From Cystobasidium ongulense (taxonomy: Eukaryota; Basidiomycota; Cystobasidiomycetes; Cystobasidiales; Cystobasidiaceae), in assembly GCA_022835595.1 (NCBI GenBank), contig BQUP01000011.1, positions 377,319-441,318 of the forward strand: a DNA stretch of 64,000 nt. Direction: 5' to 3'. Shown one piece after another: positions 1 to 5,475 of the stretch; position 1 is the first letter of the stretch, and the number at the start of each line of letters is the position of its first letter. Below the pieces are notes generated by a model. That model ran no database searches. It was not told the DNA's origin and saw nothing but the letters and a program-made list of their open reading frames with translations. Both the position numbers and the translations under genes were made by a program.

Positions 1-257
1 GCAAACATGGTATTTCGCGACTTGGTGCATATGGCGGCGCTGGATACGGCAGCTTCGGATAGTAGTTCGATTGAGCGCACATACGGGTATATCACCTGTA
101 ATTCAGACATGCGGATTTGCTTGTTGGCAAGTGCGTTCCGCACCTCAGCAAACCAGGCTTTGAACTTATCCTCGATAGTTGCGAATGCTTGACCCTCTGG
201 AATGGCGCATACTTGTCGAAACAGATCTTGAATCTGTTGCAGGAGACTGCTTGCCAT
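1..257 (-). CDS. Homeodomain mating-type protein, probable HD1 (5' part only)
   Basis: An open frame starts at the ATG at 257 and runs without a stop to the window edge, giving 85 residues (MASSLLQQIQDLFRQV...). No homeodomain is visible because only the N-terminus is inside the window. The call rests on three things: divergent transcription from a clear homeodomain gene, a start-to-start spacing of about 200 bp, and a helical, Leu/Phe-rich N-terminus of the kind that serves as the dimerisation region in basidiomycete HD1 (bE-like) proteins. In such loci the HD1 and HD2 proteins from different alleles heterodimerise in the nucleus and start the filamentous or dikaryotic programme. That role is known for the family and inferred here. 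Assignment as HD1 follows from the partner looking like HD2. An unrelated helical protein is not excluded. Confidence 0.6.
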   Translation of the reverse strand, partial: MASSLLQQIQDLFRQVCAIPEGQAFATIEDKFKAWFAEVRNALANKQIRMSELQVIYPYVRSIELLSEAAVSSAAICTKSRNTMF

Positions 258-455
258 GGCTTTATGAAGCGGGATAAACGAGTTGACAATGATTGCAACG
301 AAGGGAACCCACCTACATTTCCCGGTATCTGCAAAAAGACCGATGAGGCGGAGGTCTGAGCGCAGACAAAAGCGTGAGCGCACAGATCCTACGAGTACGT
401 TGTGCCCAATAGACTTGGGTGGACAGCTGCTCCTCTGTTAGGAACCAACATCACC
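258..455. promoter_or_regulatory. Shared intergenic promoter of the divergent HD pair
   Basis: 198 bp separate the two divergent start codons (257 on minus, 456 on plus). The HD2 ATG sits in a favourable CACCATG context. A compact shared promoter is the standard layout of basidiomycete HD loci. No specific binding site was recognised. Confidence 0.5.
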
Positions 456-2083
456 ATGTCGAGCACACTCAGCGATGCAGACGATTGGAAATCAGTTGCT
501 AGTATTTCGGCGCAACTTGAGTCCTATTTGTCTCCTCTGTATGATCCAGATCCGCAGAATAAAGAACGTTCCAACGATGGTCTGCCAAACCTGGATCTAT
601 GCAGTTATATCTCTGATATCAAAAGCGATCTTCAAACCTTCGGCCTCAGTCAAGAGCAGCATCAGTTCTGCATTGGTGTATACGAACGAAATTTACGCGA
701 AACCAGTTCCAAATTTCAGGAGTCATTCGAGACGGATTGTTCGGCAATCATCGGGGACTCGCAGTTCAGAACTCTAGCCCAACGCACGCTGGTGAAGCTC
801 TATCAGGATCGCTTCATAGATCAAGTTTCGGACAGAAGAGATCAGGTCATAGATTGTGTTCGTCGAGCTGCCATTGCGAAGGTTGCGAGCTCTTTAGAGG
901 CCGAAGGTAGTGGTGAATGGACAGACGAGACACGAGCCTTGATGGAGCGAGTGTACCAGCAGCATCCCAAGCTCGAAGGACACGAGAAGAAGCTTCTAGC
1001 CGAGGTATCAGGACTCTCACTGCGTCAGATATCGATATGGGTGAGTTGCATTGTCCATCGCATTGACACGCTCGAGCCGTGTCAGGTCGTTCGGCTTTTG
1101 TTCTTCGAAGCATGGCAGTGGCTGATGAGGCGGTTGATGCGTGCACACAGTTTGCGAATCAGCGACAGAGGAAAGGATGGCCATTGCAGCAGGAGGAGAG
1201 TGTCATTGAAGAGGAAGGACCAGAGGAAGAGCCATCTACGCCAGTCCAGTCTTCTCGTCTCGCTTCCTCCACCTCTTCCAGCATCGAACGCTGCCCTTCT
1301 CCCCTCACGCCTGCTTCCATCAACTCCGCCTGTCCATCACTCAGCTCTTCCACATCTTCAAGAAGCAGTTCAGATTCATGGGAGAATGCTCCTCCTCATG
1401 CAGCTTTCCAATTCGGCGCTCAATTGCCAGCGAGTCAAGCTCCGACATTGGAATTCACCCAATCTCCCCCTCAATTCGACATCGATCAACTCATCAGGCA
1501 GCTCACTCCTCAGGTCACTACTCCAGAAGCTGTATACAATTCAGTCGACCTTCCTGTTCCTAATTTCAATCTCACTCCTTCTAACGAAGCTGCTAAAGGT
1601 CCATTCGCATTCCTGAACGAAGACTCCGACATGTCCACAAGTAACGGAACTACGCCACCATCTACTATGGACTCCTTCCAGTGGTTGCCTATTAACATGC
1701 AAGGTCTGCTTCCTCAAGCTGATGTTACACTCTCGAACAATCACTCAATCGAAGATATGACTCCTCAAGCTAATCAGCTCGCCTTCGCACCTCTTCAACT
1801 CGATACAAGCCAATATCTCCGACAATCACCATCTGCCAATGTCGACCTAAGCAGCGTGATAGACAGTTTCAACGCCAACGATTTCTGGAACAATTTCGCC
1901 AACGCCAATAATATCCCTTCTATGCCTTCTCTTGACTTTTCTTCGTCGCCCACTAAACGGCAGCGTGGAAATGATGGTGTTGCTATCGCTCAAGAAAATA
2001 CGGATTGGAGTGATGTATTCTTCAAGGACATAGATACGTGGGGGAAACCGCCTCAGCTAGCTCAGCCTCAATTGCAGTTCTAG
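456..2083 (+). CDS. Homeodomain transcription factor, probable mating-type HD2
   Basis: Two exons (456..1040, 1151..2083) give 505 residues. The start is the ATG at 456; an upstream in-frame GTG has no support. Residues 1-150 are the variable, helix-rich region that decides partner specificity in HD proteins. The homeodomain spans about residues 155-205. The GT-AG intron falls exactly between Trp48 and Phe49 of recognition helix 3, so splicing creates ISIW|FANQRQRK with the invariant W, F, N51 and R53. Spacing from the hydrophobic residue equivalent to F20 to W48 is 28, as in a canonical 60-residue homeodomain, which favours HD2 over the longer HD1/TALE type. The rest is a Ser/Pro/Asn/Gln-rich, probably activating tail with a KRQR nuclear-localisation motif near residue 463. 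It is divergent from a second gene at 257, as in an HD mating-type locus. The homeodomain is certain; the mating-type role is inferred. Confidence 0.85.
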
Positions 2084-3301: not shown

Positions 3302-5475
3302 ATGTTCTTCTCAAAGAAGGCAGACGTGGATGAGCGGGTAGTAGCTACATCGTCATCGTCAGTAGACGACGATGCAGACCTAGCAGCTATGGGCTACAAG
3401 TCAGAATTCAAGAGAGAATTCACAAATTTGGGTACAATCTCATTCGCTTTCTCCATCATGTGAGTAGTACAGTGTATCACCTACCTGCCGTCTCATCGAC
3501 GGAAGGATGAATGTCTCTCATGACACAGTGGTCGTGAAAACCCTTCATGCACGTGACATTGATCCTGATATCCTTGAATTCTCTCCTTTTCCTCGCCTCG
3601 CTTCGATGATCTCGTAACGTGGAAATACTACAGGGGTCTATGCTCGAGTATATCGACTACCTTCGACACTCCCATGCTCCTGGGTGGTCCAGCTAGTGTA
3701 GTATGGTGTTGGGCTATGGGTTTCTGCGGATGCTTCTTCATCGGTACTTCAATTGCCGAGCTGGTCTCGGCTTATCCTACCTCTGGTGGTCTATACTCTG
3801 CCTCGTGCTACTTGGTACCACACAGATACAGAGGACCTGTAGGCTATGTCGGTGAGTGGAACTAGTCTTAGCTTTTCGATAGTCCGCCACATACTGATGC
3901 ACTATGAAATTTTGCAGTCGGTTGGATGAACCTGCTAGGTTAGTGCACCTAATATGAGCATTGGAGATTGTCCATACTAATAGTCCACAAACTCAGGCCA
4001 AGTCGCTGGTGTTGCCAGTACCGAGTTCGGTCTCAGTCGTATGATCTGGGCTGCAGTAAATGTCAGATACGACGGAGCCGTAAGCTTACAACCCAACTGT
4101 CATCGCCTTCCTCCCACTGAATGTTATCTACTCTATACAGTACGAAGTTACCGATGGCAAATTAGTCGGACTATTCGTAGGCCTACTCGTCATTCACGGC
4201 CTTCTCAACTCCATCCCAACCAAGTATCTCGCCGGTATCACCCAATCTTTCGTATTCATCAACCTCGGTGCCACCTTCGCTATTATCATTGCGCTTCTCG
4301 TATGCACCGATTCCAATGACAGAAATACCGCCTCGTACACCTTCGGTGAAATCTACAACCAGACTGGTTGGAGCAACAATGGCTTCTCGTTCTTGCTTGG
4401 TATCCTCTCGGTACAATGGGTCATGACAGACTGTAGGTCTTGTTCAACAAAATGTGCATGGTCAGCGCTGATCCAATCTTCCTGAATAGACGACGCTGCT
4501 GCTCATATCTCCGAGGAAGTCAGAAGAGCCTCTATCGCTGCTCCAGTCGCCATCTTCGTAGCTGTCATCGGAACAGGCACCATTGGATGGGTTTTCAACA
4601 TCATCCTCGTATTGTGCTCGGTACCCATCGAAGATCTTCCCGGTGCCAGTGGTATGAGCGTACCTACAATCATCGCCACACGAGTCGGCAAGGGAGGCTT
4701 CTACGCTCTATGGGTCTTCGTCTGCTTTACTGCTTTCGCTGTCGTCCAGACTGCCCTTCAAGCCAATGCACGAACCTTCTTTGCTTTCAGCAGAGACGGT
4801 GGTCTGCCCGATAGAGGATTGTTTGCTAAACTGGCCCCCAACAAGATTCCTTTATATGGTGTATGGATCGTCGTCTTCATCTCTGTTATTATGGGACTAC
4901 TTCAATTCGCATCTGCCGTAGCTGTCAATGGTTAGTTCAAGCTTGTTTCTTTTTCCCTCTCGAATGATCTGGCTAAACATCGTTCCTGTATCCTACAGCC
5001 ATCTTCTCCCTATGCGCTTGTGCTCTAGACGTATCGTACATGATTCCTGTTGCTTGCAAGCTCTTCCTCCGAGATCATCCCGAGGTGAACTACAAGCCTG
5101 GTCCATTCAATCTTGGTCGAAAGCTAGGTGCATTCTGCAACGTTATAGCCATCTCATGGACGTGCTTTGCAGTCACTATCTTGGTGAGTCCGGCTTGTAT
5201 TCGACCAAATCAGAAATCTAGGACTAAGCCGCCCTTTCGCCCTATTTTAGATTATGCCAACCATCCGACCAGTGACGGCCGAAAACATGAACTACGCCAG
5301 CATTATCACTGTCGGTGTTATGTCACTCGCAGGACTCTGGTACCTCATTAGCGCACGGAAATATTATGACGGCCCGAGAAAGACATTGCCGGAGAAGGGA
5401 GCACATTCGCAAAGCGACGAAGAATCACTTGGTCTCGATGAAGTAAAGGATAACAAGCCCTCTCCATCGCCGTGA
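3302..5475 (+). CDS. Amino-acid/GABA-type permease (APC superfamily)
   Basis: Eight exons (3302..3459, 3634..3851, 3918..3938, 3997..4079, 4141..4432, 4490..4930, 4999..5183, 5251..5475) give 540 residues, the usual length of fungal amino-acid/choline transporters of the UGA4/BAT1 kind. Visible family marks are the first-helix region FAFSIMGLCSSISTTF, the LGGPASVVWCW segment, the EFGLSR loop, and the cytoplasmic motif HISEEVRRASIAAP followed by further hydrophobic helices. About twelve membrane spans are expected. It should import GABA, choline or amino acids across the plasma or vacuolar membrane with protons; the substrate cannot be read from sequence. Exon 3 is only 21 nt. The C-terminal tail is charged (KGAHSQSDEESLGLDEVKD) and could carry regulatory or trafficking signals. 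No close functional neighbour is seen. Confidence 0.9.

Follow-up and report, generated by a model that had tools for sequence, protein, structure and literature searches.

A divergent HD1/HD2 homeodomain gene pair in Cystobasidium ongulense, a probable mating-type locus in a genus described as largely asexual

Introduction

Two homeodomain genes meet at the left edge of a 64,000-nucleotide stretch of Cystobasidium ongulense DNA (the window; C11:377319-441318 in a genome of 19,773,046 bases and 19 contigs), and they raise the question of whether they form a mating-type locus of the basidiomycete HD kind and whether such a locus is still in use. Passages of PMC6027198 describe Cystobasidium as a genus of asexual species, the sexual type species being the one exception, which counts against the mating-locus reading; the mating types treated in those passages are those of Rhodosporidiobolus. 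We found no description of mating-type genes of Cystobasidium, Cystobasidiales, or Cystobasidiomycetes in the open-licence papers searched.

Results

The gene pair. The whole locus spans ~C11:375890-379401 and is centred on the left window edge. An initial annotation of the window had placed an HD-type mating locus here and proposed that the window borders or contains MAT; the two divergent frames are found at the coordinates given, and the locus does lie at the edge, with only a part of it inside the window. HD1 (minus strand) and HD2 (plus strand) are adjacent, and the 85-codon minus-strand frame and the 198 bp from start to start were both borne out (Table 1). The segment between the two start codons would serve as a bidirectional promoter of HD1/HD2.

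Table 1. Features of the locus and its right neighbour, in window positions
Feature	Position	Strand	Basis
HD1 5' end, 85 codons to the window edge	1..257	-	open frame, position
Intergenic region common to HD1 and HD2, 198 bp	258..455	.	start-codon distance
HD2 exon 1, N-terminal part, residues 1-148	456..899	+	variable among relatives
HD2 exon 1, first part of homeodomain, residues 149-195	900..1040	+	PF00046
HD2 intron, 110 bp, within homeodomain	1041..1150	+	GTGAGT...ACAG, frame kept, homeodomain completed
HD2 exon 2, homeodomain helix 3 and C-terminal part; stop 2081-2083	1151..2083	+	
Amino-acid permease gene, right neighbour	3302..5348 (approximate extent, start by eye)	+	AA_permease_2, 88.1 bits at 4486-4932

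HD1 leaves the window leftward and runs to ~C11:375890 (L005:6490-8175, minus strand), with an open frame of 519 codons beginning at the ATG; a putative 60-nt intron near the 3' end, which we judge from resemblance to the C. minutum protein described below, would lead to a protein of ~541 aa and give it a similar tail. A Homeobox_KN search of the genome gave four matches, one of them directly left of the window (C11:377087-377209, minus strand). In the protein, Homeobox_KN (PF05920) scores 29.5 bits (cut-off 24) at residues 123-163, outside the window, and the match covers profile positions 1-40, the full length, with PF00046 not among the HD1 matches listed. When a profile of eight HD1 proteins was compared with the PDB, seven of the eight matches were the TALE proteins Meis1, Meis2, and PKNOX1, and the eighth was weak and unrelated-looking. 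The Homeobox_KN match and the TALE matches in the PDB therefore identify the upstream gene as the HD1-type partner, and the homeodomain that the initial annotation had expected there is present.

HD2 begins with the ATG at 456, contains one GT-AG intron, and encodes a protein of 505 aa. The canonical homeodomain with WFANQRQRK that had been reported for this gene is present, but it is continuous only once the intron is removed; splicing joins QISIW to FANQRQRKGW, and the product reads QISIWFANQRQRKGW through helix 3. Gene calls of the HD2 relatives break where this intron sits. Homeodomain PF00046 matches residues 156-202 with 34.9 bits (cut-off 22.9), and Homeobox_KN PF05920 passes its cut-off in part, with a weaker 27.7 bits over profile positions 14-40. 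Because HD2 passes both cut-offs, we assigned the HD1 and HD2 classes by which profile matched better and more completely. Among 39 PDB sequences, the best match to the HD2 homeodomain is DUX4, and the yeast mating protein a1 was also matched. Yeast a1 and alpha2 are partners with a typical and a TALE homeodomain, active as a heterodimer; their genes lie on alternative alleles, whereas HD1 and HD2 here lie together in one allele.

To the left of the pair lies a kinesin gene (matches to motor, KIF1B, DUF3694, and PH), followed by an AA14 LPMO gene and a GDI gene. To our knowledge, neither these nor the permease gene on the right is a recognised mating gene. C11 measures 505.7 kb, and the HD pair divides it into arms of ~376 kb and 126 kb; a run of at least 300 N opens the contig (C11:1-1500 was looked at).

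Relatives. Seven HD1 relatives at E<=0.001 were found among 7994 scored candidates (best E 1.5e-157) and eight HD2 relatives among 7990 (best E 5e-142, same threshold); the gene pair is therefore more than chance. Searching with a profile built from the eight HD1 proteins added nothing to the seven HD1 relatives. The HD2 relatives divide into those of exon 2 (P0009-P0012 and P0014) and those of exon 1 (P0013, P0015, and P0016). Cystobasidium minutum MCA 4210 (Pucciniomycotina, Cystobasidiomycetes, Cystobasidiales) contributes one HD1 and one HD2 relative: P389DRAFT_209472 is 46% identical to HD1 over 98%, and P389DRAFT_168593 (P0014) is 47% identical to HD2 exon 2 over 62%. Both are labelled in the database as hypothetical proteins, with no mating-type name. 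Judged by these two genes, the organism studied here most likely belongs to the Cystobasidiomycetes as well. We note that the public model of P0014 begins MNLQFANQRQRKGW, which places its start at the border of exon 2; lacking exon 1, the model has only a small part of the homeodomain and nothing of the recognition part.

For five of the seven HD1 relatives, the reported contig size (28636, 20630, 13394, 15845, or 3450099) equals that of an HD2 relative, and the two C. minutum proteins are among these pairs; judged by equal contig size alone, HD1 and HD2 apparently share a contig in these five cases. P0006 and P0007 (HD1) and P0009 and P0013 (HD2) are without a size-matched partner.

N-terminal variability. 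When the eight HD1 proteins are compared in all 28 combinations, identity is 22-43% over residues 1-116 and 57-93% over residues 117-500 (gapped positions excluded), and the two identities are weakly correlated (Spearman 0.36, p 0.058). The pattern is seen most directly in two near pairs. P0004 and P0006 share 39/113 positions before the homeodomain (35%) and 369/395 from the homeodomain on (93%), and P0005 and P0007 share 36/104 (35%) and 373/409 (91%), respectively; in 20-residue steps along these pairs, the break in identity is abrupt and falls at the homeodomain border. The long HD1 tail, which is predicted to be disordered, serves as an internal control, with 252/276 and 257/290 positions identical in the two pairs. 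The pairs may be alleles of one species or proteins of fast-diverging sister species.

HD2 behaves in the same manner. The window HD2 and its nearest exon-1 relative, P0013, are identical at 74/148 positions before the homeodomain (50%), at 44/47 within it (94%), and at 95/114 where exon 2 begins (83%); for this last value the intron was left in, and both sequences were compared in the shared wrong frame that follows it. For P0015 and P0016, identity is 39/142 and 28/105 in the N-terminal part and 39/47 and 41/47 over residues 149-195. The initial annotation had anticipated allele-specific N-termini in both genes; this holds among the relatives of HD1 and HD2.

Trees of the two parts of HD1 differ in resolution, with support for 0/5 inner branches from the N-terminal part and 3/5 from the remainder. 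The N-terminus of P0006 is nearer to that of P0003 (48/112) than to that of P0004 (39/113), but the N-terminal data, with 0/5 branches supported, reject neither P0004+P0006 (p-AU 0.27) nor P0005+P0007 (p-AU 0.47). The comparison of N-terminal and remainder trees of HD1 thus does not demonstrate trans-specific alleles.

Predicted structure. A model of HD1 (P0002) built from seven sequences folds residues 1-92 into three helices, with block pLDDT of 83-93 over residues 1-90; the homeodomain blocks are low (44-61), the C-terminal half is disordered, and the mean pLDDT is 48. The HD1 N-terminus is thus predicted to be a folded domain of variable sequence, as expected of a recognition domain. For the HD2 N-terminus, a model based on three sequences shows helices across residues 91-190 (pLDDT 72-88; model mean 53), with lower confidence than for the HD1 N-terminus. 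Compared by fold with the PDB, the HD1 model had 86 matches at E<=10, of which none reached E<=0.001.

The remaining mating genes. Searched against its own genome, HD1 finds its own locus and one 13.4-bit match (E 0.19), which we take as chance, and HD2 finds its own two exons only. The STE3 search gave four matches, all of them parts of a single gene on C18 (19.9 kb). This receptor gene is intact, with six exons, 368 aa, and a PF02076 score of 254.7 bits across the whole profile. The genome thus has one HD pair and one STE3 gene, on different contigs (C11 vs C18), and the single copies of HD1, HD2, and STE3 fit a haploid genome. Both contigs are without chromosome placement, and the HD and STE3 loci may be linked or unlinked. 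Intronless scans for CaaX pheromone frames gave six short frames on C18, none of them pheromone-like by eye; the 37.9 kb surrounding the HD pair, scanned with a somewhat different pattern, gave none.

The last 107 bp of C18 (L016:9832-9938) match C8:1120072-1120178 (L021:2072-2178) at 99%; the match ends 208 bp before the end of C8, and the sequences then diverge. The match may place STE3 near the C8 end, may mark the border of a variable receptor region, or may be a repeat. The segments examined from the ends of C8 and C11, one of which opens with N, contain no telomere-like repeats.

Further homeobox matches lie on C9, C16, and C19, twice on C4, and on C1. The C9 gene is of the TALE type (L001, C9:662209-665292) and has two copies, at C16:12395-15469 (L003) and C19:4611-7685 (L004), which resemble each other at ~90% and C9 at ~68-73% over the long aligned pieces. 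Both copies carry ~65 extra bp within the homeodomain, as if an intron had been gained or lost.

Discussion

We conclude, with a probability of roughly 93%, that the locus is the HD mating-type locus of a basidiomycete, represented by a single allele in a haploid or collapsed genome. The presence of both homeodomain types, their divergent orientation, the single copy of the pair, the intact STE3, and the abrupt N-terminal variability among close relatives speak for this reading; besides the description of the genus, the partial Homeobox_KN match of HD2, the low-confidence model of the homeodomain, and scans that turned up no pheromone gene weigh against it. As such it is an ordinary locus of a well-known kind, from a lineage without descriptions of mating-type genes in the papers searched. 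The HD1/HD2 locus of the Sporidiobolales red yeasts (Sporidiobolus salmonicolor and others) is a close system by its description in parts of PMC2916851 and PMC3236058, though these yeasts probably belong to a different class. The HD pair of the homothallic Phaffia rhodozyma, as presented in passages of PMC4915694, is of the same HD1/HD2 kind. According to those passages, HD2 variation is even in P. rhodozyma, while in tetrapolar species the N-terminus is far more divergent; among the relatives examined here, by contrast with P. rhodozyma, variation is concentrated N-terminally.

The characterised HD loci, as described in parts of PMC2916851, PMC3236058, and PMC4915694, provide a model for how the pair would act. 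Within one allele, HD1 and HD2 would most likely fail to pair productively through their N-terminal helical domains. Once two cells that differ in allele have fused, these domains would join HD1 from one allele to HD2 from the other, and the heterodimer would switch on sexual development. By analogy, heterodimerisation, self/non-self discrimination, and control of mating are the putative roles of HD1/HD2 in this yeast.

The alternative that survives best, though we consider it unlikely, is that of a relic in an asexual lineage, whose genes are intact through recent descent and whose use in mating has been lost. The description of the genus cited above speaks for it, as do the Sporidiobolales, in which, according to portions of PMC3236058, HD genes are kept despite the loss of sex and mating genes are maintained in asexual species. 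Against it, the HD1 and HD2 frames are open throughout, STE3 is intact, and the variation clusters in the recognition part instead of being spread. Primary homothallism is a good deal less probable: a self-compatible HD1/HD2 pair, interacting weakly in one strain, would permit solo sexual development, as has been considered for P. rhodozyma, and one HD1, one HD2, and one STE3 would be expected from such a pair too, but the relatives of HD1 and HD2 vary at the N-terminus in the manner of the tetrapolar species of PMC4915694 (as far as its passages describe them), an argument that concerns the lineage rather than this strain. That two homeobox genes of other function are neighbours by chance is very improbable, since, although the genome does hold other homeobox matches, here a TALE and a typical homeodomain stand in divergent orientation, are apparently paired in five of the seven HD1 relatives by reported contig size, and have variable N-termini in both genes.

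We give about even odds to the further reading that HD1/HD2 exist as many old alleles under balancing selection, with STE3 elsewhere in the genome, and that the Cystobasidiomycetes, whose best-known yeast genus counts as mostly asexual, practise cryptic outcrossing in a tetrapolar or pseudo-bipolar system. One point goes beyond the routine: HD variation is concentrated in the recognition part among relatives that belong to, or stand close to, a genus described as mostly asexual. The HD1 and HD2 homeodomains, ~1 kb apart and flanking the variable parts, offer conserved anchors for typing mating alleles, and the gene models and boundaries given here make it directly testable whether these "asexual" yeasts outcross.
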